From Ignavibacteriota bacterium (lineage in GTDB: Bacteria > Bacteroidota > Ignavibacteria > Ignavibacteriales > Ignavibacteriaceae), in contig CP053446.1 in assembly GCA_013285405.1 (NCBI GenBank), positions 2,589,001-2,653,000 of the forward strand: DNA of 64,000 nt, written 5' to 3'. This document shows positions 23,811 through 46,649 of this stretch, one piece after another. Under the pieces are notes generated by a model. It searched no databases. It was not told the origin of the DNA and was given only the letters and a program-made list of their open reading frames with translations. Position 1 is the first letter of the stretch. Each line of letters starts with the position of its first letter. The position numbers were made by a program, and so were the translations under genes.

Positions 23811-26800
23811 ATGATTGAAAAAATAATTGATTGGAGTGCACACAACAGGTTTCTCGTAATATTCGCTTACCTTGTTATTACTGGATTCGGAATTTACAGC
23901 GTCATCAATCTTCCGGTTGATGCGATTCCTGATTTATCAGAGAATCAAGTTATCATTTTCACAGAGTGGATGGGCAGATCACCTGAAGTAATTGAAAACC
24001 AGGTTACATTTCCGATTGTTTCAGGTTTGCAAGGATTACCTGATGTAAAAGCAGTTCGTGCTAATTCGATGTTCGGAATGTCTTTCGTGTTTGTAATCTT
24101 CGATGATAATACTGATATCTATTTTGCACGTACTCGTGTACTCGAAAGACTAAATACAATCCAGGCACAGCTTCCCGGTGGAGTTGTTCCATCTATCGGT
24201 CCTGATGGAACCGGAGTTGGACACGTTTATTGGTACACAGTTGAAGGAAAAAATTATGATCTGGGAACACTGCGATCAATTCAGGATTGGTATATTCGAT
24301 ACAAATTATCTGCAGTCGAAGGTGTCGCTGAAGTTGCGAGTATCGGTGGATTTGTTCGTCAATATCAGGTAGATATTGATCCAGATAAACTTCGTGCTTA
24401 TAATCTTTCCACATCAGAAATTATCAACGCGATTCAACGAAGTAATAATGAAGTCGGTGGAAAAATTATTGAAGCAAGCGATGCTGAATATTTTGTGCGC
24501 GGTCAGGGATATATAAAATCTAAAGAAGATGTTGAGAATACAGTAGTAAGAACAAATCCGAATGGTATTCCTGTTCTGATAAAAAATGTAGCTGTTGTTC
24601 AGCTTGGCGGTGATATTCGTCGTGGTTCATTGGAGAAAGATGGTGAAGGACAGGTTGTTGGTGGAATTGTTGTAATGCGAAGCGGCGAAAATGCACGGAA
24701 TGTTATCGACCGGGTTAAAGAAAAAATAAAAGAAATTTCTCCGGGACTTCCTGAAGGTGTAGAGATTATTGCTTCTTACGATAGAAGTACATTAATAAAA
24801 GAAGCTGTCGGTACTCTTGAGAAAGCATTGATCGAAGCATCAATCGTCGTTGCGATTATGGTTGCAATTTTTCTGCTTCACTTCAGAAGTATAGTCAGAA
24901 TATTAATTGAACTTCCTATTTCCGTTCTCATTTCATTTATCCTGATGTACACATTCGGAATTTCGAGCAACATTATGTCACTTGGCGGAATTATTCTTGC
25001 AGTCGGAGTAATTGTTGATTCATCAATTGTGCTTGTGGAAAACGCATATCGAAATCTCGCAAAAGCAATTGCAGAGAAAGGACATCTTACAAGCGAAGAA
25101 TATAAAAACATTTCTATTATGTCAGCAAAGCAAGTTGGCAGAGCAATTTTCTTTTCTGAACTTATTATACTTGTTTCGTTTCTTCCTGTGTTTTTATTAT
25201 CAGGACAGGAAGGAAAACTTTTTCATCCGCTCGCATTCACAAAAACTTTTGCAATGTTTGGTGCCGCAATTGTTGTTATCACATTGATTCCTGTTTTGAT
25301 GACAATGCTGATGAGAGGCAAGTTCAGACCCGAACAAAAAAATCCGACAACAAAATTTTTTATTCGTCTTTATGAGCCTGTAATTCATTGGGTTCTCAAG
25401 CATCGGAAGATCACAATTGCAATAAATATCATTGCTTTGTTAATAACAGTTCCGATGATAATTAACACCGGTTCAGAGTTTATGCCGCCGCTCGATGAAG
25501 GTTCAATTCTTTATATGCCGGTAACACTTCCAAATGCTTCAATAACCGAGATGAACAGAATTCTACAAGTTCAGGATAAAATTATTAAAAGCGTTCCCGA
25601 AGTTGATCACGTACTTGGTAAAGTTGGAAGAGCAGAAACTGCAACCGACAATGCACCGTTAAGTATGATTGAGACAATAATTCTTCTCAAACCAAAAGAT
25701 GAATGGCGCCCCGGAATTACGAAAAGAGATATTGTAAATGAACTTGATCACAAACTTCAAATTCCCGGAGTAACAAACGGTTGGACTCAACCAATTATTA
25801 ACAGAATAAATATGCTCGCAACCGGAGTTAGAACGGACATTGGTTTTAAAATATTCGGACCTGATCTGGATACACTTGAATATTATGCTATCAAAGCAGA
25901 ACAAATTTTAAAAACTGTAAACGGTGCTGCTGATGTTGTTGCTGAAAGAGTTCAAAACGGATATTATGTTGATATTCAAATCAAAAGAGAAATTGCTGCG
26001 CGATACGGAATAAACGTAAGTGATTTGCAGGATATAATTGAAACAGCAATCGGCGGACAAAATCTCGGAATTGTTCTGGATGGAAGAATGAGATTTCCGA
26101 TTCGGATGAGATATCAAAGAGATTTCAGAGATAATATTGATGATTTGAAAAATCTTATTGTTCCTGTTGGAGTTTCTGCCGGAATGAATTCACCAACAAT
26201 GAATACAACTAATGCTGGAATTAGTTCAATGCAACAATCATCCGGTATGGGAAGTATGGGTGGAAATTCCGGATCATCGCAATCCACAATTATTCAGGAA
26301 AATAATTCTGATAATGTTTCTTCGTTACTTAGTGCTTCGCAAAATTCAAACGTCTATCTTCCATTATCAACATTAGCAGATATAAATATTTTAACAGGAC
26401 CTCCAATGATCAGCAGTGAAAACGGAATGTTGCGTTCAATTGTTTTTATGAATACTCGCGGAAGAGATATGGGAAGTGTAATGACTGATGCAAAAGAAGT
26501 TATTGAAAAAGAATTAAACCTGCCTGCCGGATATTCTTATACCTGGAGTGGTCAGTACGAAAGTAAAATGCGTGCTCAGCAGACAATTGAAATTATTATG
26601 CCGGTTGTATTCCTGATAATTTATCTGCTGCTTTTCCTTACTCTGAAAGATTATGTTGAAGCCGGAGTAGTGATGCTTTCAGTCCCTTTTGCATTAATTG
26701 GAGGAATATACATGGTTTATATTCTCGGATATAATTTTTCTGTTGCAGTTTGGGTGGGATTTATAGCTTTGTATGGAATTGCAGTGGAAACTGGTGTGGT

Positions 26801-27167
26801 GATGGTTGTATATCTTCATGAATCGCTTGATAAAAAATTAAGAGCTCTTCAGAAAGGTGAAATAACTGAGATCACCAAAAATGATATTTATGAAGCAACA
26901 GTTGAGGGATCTGTTCTAAGATTAAGACCGAAGCTGATGACTGTTGCAACAACAATGATAGGCTTAGTTCCTGTTATGTGGGCAACGGGTACTGGTTCAG
27001 ACGTAATGAAGCCGCTTACTGCACCAATGATCGGAGGATTACTTACTTCAGCAGTTCATGTTCTGGTTGTAACACCAATTCTGTTTGCAATTATGAAGGA
27101 GCGTGCACTTAAAAAAGGTAAACTACAAATTTCAAAAATGGCTGGTTGGATGAAGGAGGGAGAATAA
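23811..27167 (+). CDS. cusA: CusA/CzcA-type heavy-metal RND efflux pump with Met/Ser-rich insert
   Basis: The 1118-residue inner-membrane transporter has the RND layout: TM1 near the N-terminus, a large periplasmic loop, a TM2-TM6 block near residues 345-500, a second loop, and TM8-TM12 at the C-terminus. It exports Cu/Ag-type ions by proton antiport. The protein is longer than most CusA proteins (about 1040). The extra length lies at residues about 786-848 in the second periplasmic loop, in a Met-, Ser-, Asn- and Gly-rich stretch including SSMQQSSGMGSMGG. Such a loop could bind Cu(I) through Met, but this is inference. The TolC-like gene follows after 2 bases, with a strong AAGGAGG at the 3' end of cusA. 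Confidence 0.9.
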   Translation: MIEKIIDWSAHNRFLVIFAYLVITGFGIYSVINLPVDAIPDLSENQVIIFTEWMGRSPEVIENQVTFPIVSGLQGLPDVKAVRANSMFGMSFVFVIFDDNTDIYFARTRVLERLNTIQAQLPGGVVPSIGPDGTGVGHVYWYTVEGKNYDLGTLRSIQDWYIRYKLSAVEGVAEVASIGGFVRQYQVDIDPDKLRAYNLSTSEIINAIQRSNNEVGGKIIEASDAEYFVRGQGYIKSKEDVENTVVRTNPNGIPVLIKNVAVVQLGGDIRRGSLEKDGEGQVVGGIVVMRSGENARNVIDRVKEKIKEISPGLPEGVEIIASYDRSTLIKEAVGTLEKALIEASIVVAIMVAIFLLHFRSIVRILIELPISVLISFILMYTFGISSNIMSLGGIILAVGVIVDSSIVLVENAYRNLAKAIAEKGHLTSEEYKNISIMSAKQVGRAIFFSELIILVSFLPVFLLSGQEGKLFHPLAFTKTFAMFGAAIVVITLIPVLMTMLMRGKFRPEQKNPTTKFFIRLYEPVIHWVLKHRKITIAINIIALLITVPMIINTGSEFMPPLDEGSILYMPVTLPNASITEMNRILQVQDKIIKSVPEVDHVLGKVGRAETATDNAPLSMIETIILLKPKDEWRPGITKRDIVNELDHKLQIPGVTNGWTQPIINRINMLATGVRTDIGFKIFGPDLDTLEYYAIKAEQILKTVNGAADVVAERVQNGYYVDIQIKREIAARYGINVSDLQDIIETAIGGQNLGIVLDGRMRFPIRMRYQRDFRDNIDDLKNLIVPVGVSAGMNSPTMNTTNAGISSMQQSSGMGSMGGNSGSSQSTIIQENNSDNVSSLLSASQNSNVYLPLSTLADINILTGPPMISSENGMLRSIVFMNTRGRDMGSVMTDAKEVIEKELNLPAGYSYTWSGQYESKMRAQQTIEIIMPVVFLIIYLLLFLTLKDYVEAGVVMLSVPFALIGGIYMVYILGYNFSVAVWVGFIALYGIAVETGVVMVVYLHESLDKKLRALQKGEITEITKNDIYEATVEGSVLRLRPKLMTVATTMIGLVPVMWATGTGSDVMKPLTAPMIGGLLTSAVHVLVVTPILFAIMKERALKKGKLQISKMAGWMKEGE

Positions 27168-27169
27168 AA

Positions 27170-28552
27170 ATGGTAGATGTTAAATGGAAGATGGGAAATG
27201 GAATTTCGAATTTCGAATTTCGAATTTCGAATTTATCATTAGTGTCTTTTAAGTATTTATATAAAAGAGTATTTATTATTCTAATAACAATATTTTCATT
27301 TTTCGAAAACAGTTTTGCTCAAAGTGTTGATTCATTGATTAATGAAGCTATGCTGAATAATCCGTATTTAAAATCTATTGAGCAAAAAATATATTCCGGA
27401 CAATACAGAGCTGAATCAGTTGATTATTTGCCACCTCCAACACTTGGAGTGCAGTTTGATCAAATACCAATCAAGGAAATTAATATCTGGAATAGTGCAA
27501 TTTCTAATTCACTTTCACTTTCTCAAATGTTTCCTCTCGGTGGAAAGTTAAGTGCAATGAACAAAGTTGAACTTCAGAATGTTGAAGTAACAAAAAGAGA
27601 TTACGACTCATATAAAATAAATCTTATTGCACAGATCAAAATGCAATACTATAATATCTGGCAGATCGAAAGAAAACTCGATGTTCAACAGGGCACAATT
27701 GATTTATTAAATAATATTTTAAGTTCTGTTGATGTCAGCTATCAGGTAAACAGAATTAATCAGGCGGATCTTTTAACAGTTAAAAGTGAAGTCGCATCGA
27801 ATAATGCTCAGCTTGTAATTCTGAAAAAACAGCGTGAAGCCGAAATTTATAAACTGAACAAATTGCTTGGTAGAAAACTCAACTCAAATGAAATTGTAAT
27901 TGAAAAGTCTATTGCAGAAGATTCACTCACTTATTCACAGGATGAACTGGAAACAATTCTGATTGATTCAAATCCTTCTCTCCGAAAAATGGGAACGATG
28001 ATCGAAATGAACAAAGCAATGGTGAATGCAAATAATAGTGAACTTGTTCCTGATCTTATGATTGAAGGAATGTTTATGCGAATGCCGCAGGGAATGATAC
28101 TCACATCTCAGTCAGATATTAGCATGATTGGTATGGAGTCAGCAAGTACTGAATATATGTACTCACTGATGGCTTCAATCACTTTACCTTTCGTTCCGTG
28201 GTCATCTGGAAAATACAGCAATAAAGAAGAAGAACTTCTATCTGATATTAAAGGTATTGAGTATGAAAAGAATAATATGCAAAGAGAAATGATAACAGAA
28301 CTGCAAACAGCTTTTGTTAAACTGAAGACAGCACAGGAGTTGATTAACCTTTATTCAAAAGAAGTCATACCAAGTTATGAGCAAGCTGCAGAATCACAAC
28401 TGGCAAATTATCAGAACAATCGCACGAATATCACGACTGTAATTGATTCATACAGAATGCTTCTTATGCAACGAATGAATTTTTATATGGCACAAGCTGA
28501 TCGTCAAATGGCTATCGCTGAAATTGAAATGATGGTTGGAAAAAGGTTGTGA
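27170..28552 (+). CDS. TolC-family outer membrane efflux protein of the Cus system
   Basis: The 460-residue protein contains two TolC-type repeats of long helices with the usual NPxL near the start (NNPYLKSI). It forms the outer-membrane exit duct of the pump. AAGGAGGG lies about 8 bases before the ATG at 27170, so this start is preferred to the 27146 ATG overlapping cusA. Residues 1-22 come from simple repeats (ATGGNAGATGG and AATTTCG units) placed ahead of the signal peptide, which ends near NSFAQS. The N-terminal addition has no known role. Confidence 0.85.
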   Translation: MVDVKWKMGNGISNFEFRISNLSLVSFKYLYKRVFIILITIFSFFENSFAQSVDSLINEAMLNNPYLKSIEQKIYSGQYRAESVDYLPPPTLGVQFDQIPIKEINIWNSAISNSLSLSQMFPLGGKLSAMNKVELQNVEVTKRDYDSYKINLIAQIKMQYYNIWQIERKLDVQQGTIDLLNNILSSVDVSYQVNRINQADLLTVKSEVASNNAQLVILKKQREAEIYKLNKLLGRKLNSNEIVIEKSIAEDSLTYSQDELETILIDSNPSLRKMGTMIEMNKAMVNANNSELVPDLMIEGMFMRMPQGMILTSQSDISMIGMESASTEYMYSLMASITLPFVPWSSGKYSNKEEELLSDIKGIEYEKNNMQREMITELQTAFVKLKTAQELINLYSKEVIPSYEQAAESQLANYQNNRTNITTVIDSYRMLLMQRMNFYMAQADRQMAIAEIEMMVGKRL

Positions 28553-28570
28553 TAGAAGATGTTGAGCGAA

Positions 28571-28655
28571 CCTGCCTGCCAGTAGGCAGGGCGAAATCCC
28601 GCCTTGCGGGAGAAAATGGAAGATGGAAGATGGCAGATGGTAGATGGGAAATGGA
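28571..28655. repeat. Repeat cluster after the TolC gene
   Basis: CCTGCCT-N6-AGGCAGG (28571-28590) is followed by CCCGCCTTGCGGG (28598-28610) and a run of ATGGNAGATGG units. The 13-mer AGATGGCAGATGG at 28628-28640 has a perfect inverted copy at 29357-29369 inside the start of the adaptor gene. These inverted copies bracket the four-helix-bundle gene and its GIY-YIG insert. Confidence 0.6.
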
Positions 28656-28829
28656 TATAATAATGAGGTAATGTAAAATGAATCCTAAAACCGAAGAATT
28701 ATTAGAAAGAACATTTCAATTTGGAGTTGATACTCTGAAATTTTTAATGTCTTTACCAAAAGATAAAGTTTTTGGAATAATCGTCTATCAGTTAGGAAAA
28801 TCTTCAACTTCATCAGGATCAAATTATTC

Positions 28830-29103
28830 ACCCCGTCAAATATGAAACAAAAATATATTGTATACATTTTACAAAGCAAATTAGACAACAAATTCTATGT
28901 TGGATTTACAAACAATTTAAAGAAGAGATTAATAGAACATAATAGTGGGAAAGTTAAATCGACAAAATCAAGGAGACCTCTTGATTTAGTTTATGCGGAG
29001 GTTTGTTACAACAAAAGTGATGCGCTACATAGAGAAAAATATTTGAAAAGTTCTTACGGGAAAAGATTTATTAGAAATCGGCTGAAAAATTATTTGACGG
29101 GGT
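28830..29103 (+). mobile_element. Compact GIY-YIG element with 13-bp terminal inverted repeats
   Basis: ACCCCGTCAAATA at 28830-28842 and TATTTGACGGGGT at 29091-29103 are perfect inverted copies. They bracket a single gene whose ATG begins on the last base of the left repeat and whose final codons lie in the right repeat. The element splits a conserved motif of the host gene, so insertion is directly visible. No target-site duplication is evident. Confidence 0.75.
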
Positions 29104-29105
29104 AA
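28842..29105 (+). CDS. Small GIY-YIG nuclease
   Basis: The 87-residue protein has a GIY-like strand YIVYIL at residues 5-10, a YIG-like strand FYVGFTNN at 18-25, the catalytic Arg region LKKRLIEHN, and a Glu in HREKYLKS near residue 63. This is the single-domain GIY-YIG nuclease (YhbQ/UPF0213-like) found in many copies in Bacteroidota-related genomes. The start ATGA overlaps the premature stop of the upstream host fragment, which could allow translational coupling. It is the only gene of the inverted-repeat element. A role in the element's own spread is plausible but unproven. Confidence 0.85.
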   Translation: MKQKYIVYILQSKLDNKFYVGFTNNLKKRLIEHNSGKVKSTKSRRPLDLVYAEVCYNKSDALHREKYLKSSYGKRFIRNRLKNYLTG

Positions 29106-29329
29106 AGAAGCACAAGCTGCTGAATCGGCAATGGATTTCAATCATAAAATTGGAATTGTTCTTAAAGAAATCTGTGAAAGTAATTATTGGTACCGAGTTT
29201 TAAATGCAATACTAACAAATTTTAAAAAAGATATAGAGTTACAAAGACTTTTAAATGAAAGCTTTGAATTAAAAAAAATATTTTCATCTATAAAGATTAA
29301 AACCAGTTTGAGAAAGAAGGATAAATAAT

Positions 29330-30850
29330 ATGTTTAAAAAATTAAAAATACATTTTCCATCTGCCATCTACCATCTACCATTAGTAATAATTTTATTGTT
29401 AACGATATCAACAGGATGTTCATCTGATAATGGAAATGACAATGCGGAAAATAATAAAGTAGTTTACACCTGTCCTATGCATCCGCAAGTTATCTCCGAT
29501 AAACCAGGATCGTGTCCAATCTGTGGAATGGATCTGGTAAAAAAATCTTCTGAAGAAGCAAAGTTAGAAGATATGGAAGGAATGATAATTTTGAGCGATC
29601 AAAAAATTGCACTCGCTGATGTAACTACTATCAAAGTTAAAAAACAAAATTTGGTTAAAGAAATCAGTGCTTACAGCTATCTCGATTTTGTTGAAGAAAA
29701 CAGAAAAACGATTTCAGCAAAATTCAACGGAAGGATTGAAAAACTTTATGTTGATAAAACCGGCGACTTCATACAAAAAGGTAAACCTCTTTTTGATATT
29801 TATAGTCCCGATCTTGTTCAGGCACAAAATGATTATCTGATTGCAATAGGAAATAAACAAAGCTCAGAATACAATTCAACTGGTAATTCCGGGACTAAAA
29901 ATGATCTTAAAAATTCTGCCAGAAAAAAACTTGAGCTACTTGGAATTACAGACAATCAGATAAAAGAACTTGACAACTCCGGTGAAATAAAATTAACCAT
30001 CACATATTATTCTCCTTATTCTGGAACTGTAATCGAGAAAAAAGTTCAGGAGGGGATGTATGTTAGCGAAGGAAGTTCCATTTATGAAATTGCAGATTTA
30101 TCCTTACTCTGGAATATTGCCGAAGTTTATGAGAACGATTTAAACGTAATAAAACCCGGAAGTAAAATGGAGCTTATTCTTCAAGCTTTCCCTGGAGAAA
30201 CATTTACCGGAAGAATTTCATTTGTATATCCTGTAGTAAATCCGGAGACAAGAACAATTAAAATCAGAAGCGAAATTCAGAATAAAGGAAACAAGCTTCG
30301 CCCGAATATGTATGGTCAGACAATATTTAAAAATAATTTTGGAGATGGATTGATAATTCCGTCAGATGCAATTTTGTTTTCGGGCAAAAGAAATATAGTT
30401 TGGGTGCGATTACCCGATGGAATGTTTGAATCACGTGAAGTGAAAGTTGGCAATAAATTCGGAGATAATTATCAAATTCTTTCCGGATTAAAAGAAGGTG
30501 AAGAAGTTGCGGCAACTGGCGGATTCCTTATTGATTCTGAAAGCCAGTTGAAAAGCGGAATGCCTACCGGACATCAGCATGGAGAAGTTGATCAGGAAAA
30601 GAAGGAAGTAAATGATCATTCCCAGCATTCATCTGAAGAAATGAAAAATATGAATGAGGAAAAAGATATTGTTAATAAAAGAGACGTAAAAGTTTCTACT
30701 CTCGATATAAATAAAGATGGTTTTGTTTATCAATGTCCGATGGATTGGGAAGTAATTTCTGATAAACCGGGAACCTGTCCTTTATGTAAAATGGATTTGA
30801 AAAAATTCACAGTCAATGAAGCTCAGAAGAATTTAATCGAATATCCTTAA
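29330..30850 (+). CDS. cusB: CusB-like RND periplasmic adaptor with two heavy-metal-binding domains
   Basis: The 506-residue lipoprotein has a signal peptide ending at a lipobox (STGC near residue 30). Next comes a heavy-metal-binding domain, TCPMHPQVISDKPGSCPICGM at about residues 47-67 (written here only as landmarks: CPMH and CPICGM). A barrel-sandwich/HlyD core follows, then a His-rich linker and a second metal-binding domain near the C-terminus (CPMDW and CPLCKM). It would deliver Cu/Ag to CusA and link pump to duct. The signal peptide is partly coded by the ATGGNAGATGG repeat family in inverse orientation. The adaptor is separated from tolC by the nested insertion. Confidence 0.88.
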   Translation: MFKKLKIHFPSAIYHLPLVIILLLTISTGCSSDNGNDNAENNKVVYTCPMHPQVISDKPGSCPICGMDLVKKSSEEAKLEDMEGMIILSDQKIALADVTTIKVKKQNLVKEISAYSYLDFVEENRKTISAKFNGRIEKLYVDKTGDFIQKGKPLFDIYSPDLVQAQNDYLIAIGNKQSSEYNSTGNSGTKNDLKNSARKKLELLGITDNQIKELDNSGEIKLTITYYSPYSGTVIEKKVQEGMYVSEGSSIYEIADLSLLWNIAEVYENDLNVIKPGSKMELILQAFPGETFTGRISFVYPVVNPETRTIKIRSEIQNKGNKLRPNMYGQTIFKNNFGDGLIIPSDAILFSGKRNIVWVRLPDGMFESREVKVGNKFGDNYQILSGLKEGEEVAATGGFLIDSESQLKSGMPTGHQHGEVDQEKKEVNDHSQHSSEEMKNMNEEKDIVNKRDVKVSTLDINKDGFVYQCPMDWEVISDKPGTCPLCKMDLKKFTVNEAQKNLIEYP

Positions 30851-44738: not shown

Positions 44739-46010
44739 ATGATTAAGGCAGTAACCGGAACAAAAGATATTCTTCCATCTGATATTCCACGATGGAAATA
44801 TCTTGAGAAAACTGTTGAAAGAATTTTCAGTAATTTTAATTATAAGGAAATCCGAACACCGGTATTTGAAGAGACATCATTATTTGCAAGAGGAATTGGT
44901 GAAGAAACTGATATCGTTGGAAAAGAAATGTACACTTTTAAAGATAGAAGTGATACAAGTTTAACTCTTAAACCTGAAATGACAGCATCGGTCGTACGTT
45001 CTTTTGTTGAACATTCACTCGGTGCACAGCAGTCATTAGTAAAATTATTTTATATCTCACCGATGTTCCGGCAGGAAAGACCACAGGCAGGAAGGTTCAG
45101 ACAATTTCATCAGTTTGGTGCTGAAGCAATCGGAAGCAAGTCTCCTTTGCTCGATGCTGAAATGATACAGATGGCTTATGAAATATTTAAATCACTTGGA
45201 TTAAAAAACCTCACGGTAAAAATAAACTCACTTGGCACTCCTGAAACGAGGGAGAATTATAAAAAGATTCTGAAAAATTTTCTGGAAGATAAAAAGAATA
45301 ATCTTTCTGAAGACAGCAGAAGAAGATTTGAAACGAATATCCTGAGAATATTTGACAGCAAAGTTGAATCAGATCAAAAAATAATTAAGGATGCACCGAA
45401 GCTAATCGATCATCTTGATGAAGAAAGTAAAAATGATTTTGATGTTGTGAAAGATCAATTAAAAAAATCAAATATTCCGTTTATAATTGATTCAACTCTT
45501 GTAAGAGGATTAGACTATTATACAAAACTTACATTTGAAATAGACAGCGGGAGTGTTGGTGCACAAACAGCTTTGTGTGGTGGTGGAAGATACGATTTGC
45601 TTATTGAAAATATCGGAGGAAAACCAACTCCTGCAACCGGATTTGCTGCAGGTATCGAAAGAATTCTACTTGCCTGTGAGAATGAAAAAAGTTTTATTGT
45701 TCCGATTGCTACGATTGATGTTTATCTGATCAGAATTGATAATGATTTAGAGATTGTTGTCAGTGAACTCGCAGTAAAATTGCGCAAAGAAAATCTCTCC
45801 GTTGATTTTGATTATCTGCAGAGAAGTGTTAAAGCACAAATGCGCGAAGCAAATAAGTTGAATGCAAAGTATGTGCTATTTATTGGCGGCGATGAATACA
45901 AACAAGGAATGATAAATTTGAAAAATATGGCTACCGGTGTTGAAGAGAAAGTTGCAATTACTGAAATCAGTAAAACAATTACAAGAATTAAAACTAACCC
46001 AATTTCTTAA
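44739..46010 (+). CDS. hisS: Histidyl-tRNA synthetase
   Basis: The 423-residue class II synthetase has the start GTKDILPSDIPRW, motif 2 FRQERPQAGRFRQFHQFGAE, the histidine-specific LVRGLDYYT and motif 3 ATGFAAGIERIL, then an anticodon-binding domain. It charges tRNA-His. The last codons (TNPIS and the TAA stop) fall inside a 31-base REP-like hairpin (45994-46024), with the stop codon in the loop, so the native C-terminus has probably been rewritten by the insertion. Confidence 0.95.
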   Translation: MIKAVTGTKDILPSDIPRWKYLEKTVERIFSNFNYKEIRTPVFEETSLFARGIGEETDIVGKEMYTFKDRSDTSLTLKPEMTASVVRSFVEHSLGAQQSLVKLFYISPMFRQERPQAGRFRQFHQFGAEAIGSKSPLLDAEMIQMAYEIFKSLGLKNLTVKINSLGTPETRENYKKILKNFLEDKKNNLSEDSRRRFETNILRIFDSKVESDQKIIKDAPKLIDHLDEESKNDFDVVKDQLKKSNIPFIIDSTLVRGLDYYTKLTFEIDSGSVGAQTALCGGGRYDLLIENIGGKPTPATGFAAGIERILLACENEKSFIVPIATIDVYLIRIDNDLEIVVSELAVKLRKENLSVDFDYLQRSVKAQMREANKLNAKYVLFIGGDEYKQGMINLKNMATGVEEKVAITEISKTITRIKTNPIS

Positions 46011-46024
46011 AGAAATTGGGTTAG
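45994..46024. repeat. REP-like hairpin at the end of hisS
   Basis: CTAACCCAATTTCT (45994-46007) and AGAAATTGGGTTAG (46011-46024) are perfect 14-base arms around TAA, which serves as the hisS stop codon. The RAYT gene starts 14 bases later. A second copy lies at 46617-46649. Confidence 0.85.
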
Positions 46025-46037
46025 TCTGAAAGTTAAA

Positions 46038-46616: not shown

Positions 46617-46649
46617 ACAAACCCAATTTCTTAAAGAAATTGGGTTTGT
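46617..46649. repeat. REP-like hairpin between RAYT and rlmB
   Basis: ACAAACCCAATTTCT (46617-46631) and AGAAATTGGGTTTGT (46635-46649) are perfect 15-base arms around TAA. The rlmB ATG follows 10 bases later, preceded by AGTTAA, as in front of the RAYT gene. Confidence 0.85.

Follow-up and report, generated by a model that had tools for sequence, protein, structure and literature searches.

A 274-bp putative mobile element consisting of a GIY-YIG nuclease gene between palindromic ends

What is a small nuclease gene, tightly enclosed by a perfect inverted repeat, doing in the middle of another gene? This question is raised by a locus in the 64-kb stretch of Ignavibacteriota DNA analysed here (64,000 nucleotides, referred to below as the window), for which an earlier note had described a 274-base GIY-YIG element caught inside a host gene, had pointed to no named element class like it, and had left open whether the host mRNA is spliced. 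To answer it, we first examined the locus and its chance of arising from background sequence, and then searched for relatives, uninterrupted homologues and known systems with which it might be compared.

The inverted repeat, the nuclease gene and the interrupted host

The description in the earlier note is correct. The left terminal inverted repeat, ACCCCGTCAAATA, lies at 28830-28842 (+) and the right, TATTTGACGGGGT, at 29091-29103 (+), and the two are perfectly complementary. Between them is an ORF (28842-29105, +) that starts with ATG at 28842-28844, its A being the last base of the left repeat, and ends with TAA at 29103-29105, its T being the last base of the right repeat, which also encodes the C-terminal Leu-Thr-Gly. 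The 87-aa product matches Pfam GIY-YIG (E=4.6e-19) and no other family. The whole element spans 28830-29103 (+), 274 bp, although the exact outer limits may lie 1-3 bases further out.

The flanking sequences are the 5' part (28678-28829, +, ending ...SGSNY) and the 3' part (29104-29328, +, EAQAAES... to the stop) of a four-helix-bundle gene: read as one protein they match TIGR02436 (E=5.4e-16), whereas neither half alone matches a Pfam family. Intact homologues in relatives (72% identical and less) run through the site as AATTATGAAGAAGC, NYEEAQ, while the window reads AATTAT-TC[ACCCCG...CGGGGT]AAA-GAAGC; the host fragments are thus normally one gene, and the segment is an insertion. We also note that the interrupted gene with its insert is itself flanked by an 88% inverted repeat of 32 bp made of GATGG-type units (28615-28646 and 29351-29382), and that in one of the related loci (L065) the four-helix-bundle gene is flanked by inverted GTTCAAA-type repeats, so the host gene may be a mobile cassette. 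It sits between the outer-membrane-factor-like and membrane-fusion-like genes of what reads, by eye, as a heavy-metal efflux (RND) operon (23811-30850).

The inverted repeat is the only perfect one of 13 bp with at least 6 G/C and arms within 300 bp in the 64-kb window, and in 40 first-order Markov simulations of the window only 2 had one such pair anywhere, without being asked to abut an ORF. Two perfect hairpins of nearly the same sequence (A[CA][TA]AACCCAATTTCTT with its complement and a short loop) were also seen about 620 bp apart, at 45993-46025 and 46617-46649. In its own 3.86-Mb genome, the 12-mer ACCCCGTCAAAT occurs only in the pair at the element ends. Most notably, the same kind of ends recurs at the same place around homologous ORFs in other phyla, which puts the arrangement beyond chance.

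Paired ends, targets and mini-copies among the relatives

A scan of 84,980 species genomes gave 67 relatives, and a search of 196 related whole genomes gave many more. Of 98 GIY-YIG loci examined, 52 had paired ends; those without were mostly the more distant homologues, and homologous genes above about 54% identity nearly all carry matching inverted ends. A stricter table holds 41 elements besides ours, each with one GIY-YIG ORF, of 265-395 bp and most of them 273-300. Together these come from Ignavibacteria, Bacteroidota (including cultivated Algoriphagus), Chlorobiota, Cloacimonadota, Neomarinimicrobiota, WOR-3, Aminicenantes, Bipolaricaulota, Campylobacterota (Desulfurellales), Planctomycetota, Myxococcota, Patescibacteria and one MAG labelled Akkermansia, or about a dozen phyla, although the labels are those of the records and most of the elements come from MAGs. 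Neither of the two conditions that the earlier note had set against its own reading, that homologous genes elsewhere lack the repeats or that the host fragments are normally separate genes, is therefore fulfilled.

The repeat belongs to a degenerate end consensus, RCCCYGTNNRATA / TATYNNACRGGGY, that varies in step at both ends. The three variable bases occur in seven kinds, yet the two ends of an element agree in 39 of 41 cases against 7.5 expected by permutation, with none of 10,000 permutations as high. In a pair count, 96.3% of cells pair in the 13-bp stem, seven of thirteen pairs show two-sided changes, and columns 11-13 have 26 such changes and no broken pair; sliding the partners drops pairing (measured over 16 pairs) from 88.6% to 30-46%. 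Candidates were accepted with up to 3 mismatches of 11 between the ends, which biases pairing upward somewhat but does not by itself create matched triplets of seven kinds. In many copies the right end also encodes the C-terminal Leu-Thr-Gly, so that codon choices there are mirrored in the non-coding left end. On a protein tree the end types need 17 changes (minimum 7, shuffled 28.5), so both ends switched together several times rather than being inherited once.

To define the targets, we built a profile from intact relatives. At least 20 of 41 copies interrupt a four-helix-bundle gene, nearly always with the left flank ending at model position 47-51 and the right flank starting at 51-58 (a few start later), on the same strand as the nuclease ORF. 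Other host halves, read together, match GxxExxY/PDDEXK_3, integron integrase, another phage-type integrase, REP-associated tyrosine transposase, DinD (weak), ORF6N and a recG-like ATPase; one copy lies just after a ribosomal protein L11 gene, and several Patescibacteria copies precede a gene that we read, by eye, as ribosomal protein L10. The common theme is dispensable or mobile genes, plus spacers of ribosomal operons.

Recent movement at the DNA level is inferred from two Desulfurellales MAGs (loci L061 and L062), which carry an element 98.95% identical over 286 bp in four-helix-bundle genes that are only about 75-90% identical (75-77% next to the element and 0.7-0.9 further along); beyond the gene nothing aligns well, and the change in identity falls at the ends. 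Proteins of this family typically differ by 35-45%, so conservation does not explain the 99%. In Algoriphagus the site is filled in four genomes (G196, G197, G213 and G236) and empty in many others, and G197 also has an empty paralogue. However, no near-identical full copies at two different sites within one genome were found.

Interestingly, the elements are accompanied by MITE-like palindromes of 36-130 bp with the same ends and no ORF, of which there are 28 distinct candidates in the loci examined; only 4 of the 28 have an open frame through them. One Bacteroidales genome (G200) has about ten, some identical in body but in different flanks, and one 287-bp full copy with identical ends. Mini-copies also lie inside full elements (at loci L266 and L084), and in L061/L062 one is read in frame within the same host gene.

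The genome that contains the window holds other GIY-YIG genes, and these are mostly not the same element. Several (e.g., G000:C1:2945597-2947078 and 712545-713377) sit beside tRNA-Asn, tRNA-Asp (five tandem copies, period 315 bp), tRNA-Ala, tRNA-Ser (three tandem copies, period 316 bp) and tmRNA, together with partial copies of those RNA genes that hold short palindromes; they lack the inverted ends and lie outside the clade, and look like a second, RNA-gene-linked amplification of GIY-YIG genes. A further copy (L002, 59% identical) lies inside the clade but lacks clear ends, and sits just downstream of a 97-bp mini-palindrome with GTGAGAT-type ends (G000:C1:2141008-2141104; 509-605 of locus L177). 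No phage or plasmid origin was supported, as only distant GIY-YIG proteins (<=45% identity) were found on plasmids and phages, and none in viral contigs.

The predicted nuclease and its relation to known systems

The catalytic residues of the nuclease, Y8, Y19, G21, R29 and E65, are invariant in the family. The AlphaFold model has a mean pLDDT of 92.8 and shows only the GIY-YIG domain and a short helical tail; the nearest solved folds are UPF0213 (1zg2) and Slx1 (7cq2, 6sei) (TM about 0.65), followed by I-TevI and UvrC, and sequence profiles agree. Neither UPF0213 nor Slx1 is known to sit between inverted ends or to be mobile.

The locus resembles insertion sequences and their MITEs in having inverted ends around one gene, insertion into genes, and ORF-less derivatives with the same ends. 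However, the nuclease is GIY-YIG and not a DDE, HUH, DEDD, tyrosine or serine transposase, and the size is 274-300 bp against roughly 800-2000 bp (PMC10969869). There is also no constant target duplication: by our reading of the junctions by eye, duplications of 2, 3 or 4 bp each fit some junctions and fail others, and compared with uninterrupted homologues, filled sites usually carry about 3-5 extra bases beyond CCC...GGG or, in Algoriphagus, have lost about 8. The exact junction rule is the least settled part of this description. IS1272 also has inverted-repeat ends, targets chosen by inverted-repeat structure and no target duplication (PMC5678879), but it is a conventional IS carrying a transposase gene, whereas here there is an ~85-aa GIY-YIG protein and the targets are mostly a gene codon rather than proven stem-loops.

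Free-standing GIY-YIG homing endonuclease genes (I-TevI, Seg type) share the nuclease and the recurrence at one site of a conserved gene, but the present elements have inverted ends, several unrelated target genes and ORF-less derivatives, and have no NUMOD-type DNA-binding domain, intron or intein. In the Tsy transposon (PMC10293859) a GIY-YIG nuclease gene is accessory to two tyrosine recombinases, while here it encodes the only protein. Rickettsia palindromic elements are short palindromes inside protein genes, sometimes read in frame, which is true here of the L061/L062 minis, although only 4 of the 28 minis have an open frame; they have no known mobilising gene, whereas the palindromes here share ends with a nuclease-bearing element. 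The GIY-YIG superfamily survey PMC1564403 describes no such element in the parts consulted, and as the earlier note had suggested, no named class that fits was found in the open-access literature searched, most subscription papers and all bioRxiv-only papers lying outside it. We therefore regard it as categorically new, with the reservation that catalysis of movement by the nuclease is inferred.

Competing explanations and implications

We conclude, with reasonable confidence, that this is a DNA-level mobile element: a minimal, insertion-sequence-like unit of about 275-300 bp that spreads by inserting at preferred sites in dispensable genes, above all one codon of TIGR02436 four-helix-bundle genes, in the sense direction, so that host transcription runs into its ORF. 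It looks like one of the smallest self-sufficient mobile elements known. That the nuclease catalyses movement is an inference. Most likely, the inverted ends fold into a hairpin or cruciform, the nuclease, whose structural relative Slx1 probably acts by cutting branched DNA, cleaves there and/or at a target, and the element is joined or copied in during repair without a fixed target duplication. A nuclease of this kind acting on inverted ends whose sequence drifts while pairing is kept is a coherent mechanism, although the joining chemistry is unexplained, GIY-YIG proteins are not known as transposases, and this one has no separate DNA-binding domain. Mini-palindromes with the same ends would be moved in trans and may serve as landing sites.

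Less likely, but not excluded, is that the palindrome is the mobile unit, a MITE- or REP-like repeat moved by an unrelated host or transposon enzyme, and that the GIY-YIG gene is a passenger or homing gene that landed inside such a palindrome and spreads by cutting palindromes that lack it. Consistent with this, ORF-less palindromes with identical ends outnumber full copies in G200, GIY-YIG nucleases are classic homing enzymes, and minis and full copies occur in the same host gene family. On the other hand, full elements have nearly constant size with the ORF reaching into the ends in many copies, the ORF is conserved with its catalytic residues, and the clade with ends is separated from GIY-YIG genes without them; a gene landing many times in pre-existing palindromes would not give this uniform build.

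An RNA-level intervening sequence, in which the inverted ends pair in the mRNA and the segment is excised so that the host gene stays functional, is very unlikely. Both host halves are open, the insertions are in the sense strand and end pairing is conserved, but no Rfam intron model matches in 28500-29400, and removal of the repeat-bounded segment gives AATTATTCAAAGAAGCAC, which leaves the host out of frame. Excision would also leave the host out of frame in Algoriphagus, where sites lack about 8 host bases, and minis share the ends but lie in non-coding repeats. These observations argue against RNA splicing and for DNA insertion with imprecise joining. Finally, a coincidence of a stand-alone GIY-YIG gene, a decayed host gene and a chance repeat, conceivable because 174 of 196 related genomes have a GIY-YIG gene, is refuted by the recurrence of the same ends, host codon and strand across phyla, with co-varying ends.

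The most far-reaching possibility, which we consider about as likely as not, is a new class of autonomous transposable element, the smallest known, in which an ~85-residue single-domain GIY-YIG nuclease is the only transposition protein, recognises hairpin ends largely by shape, inserts without a fixed target duplication, and also moves ORF-less palindromes, which would offer a model for orphan palindromic elements such as those of Rickettsia. If the nuclease alone moves the element, transposition needs only about 85 amino acids and two 13-bp ends, with a nuclease family not known to act as a transposase. It would also supply a mobilising enzyme for short palindromic repeats whose movement is unexplained, and a small site-selective insertion system amenable to laboratory study. 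The family spans about a dozen phyla and is probably annotated only as stand-alone GIY-YIG proteins beside split genes.
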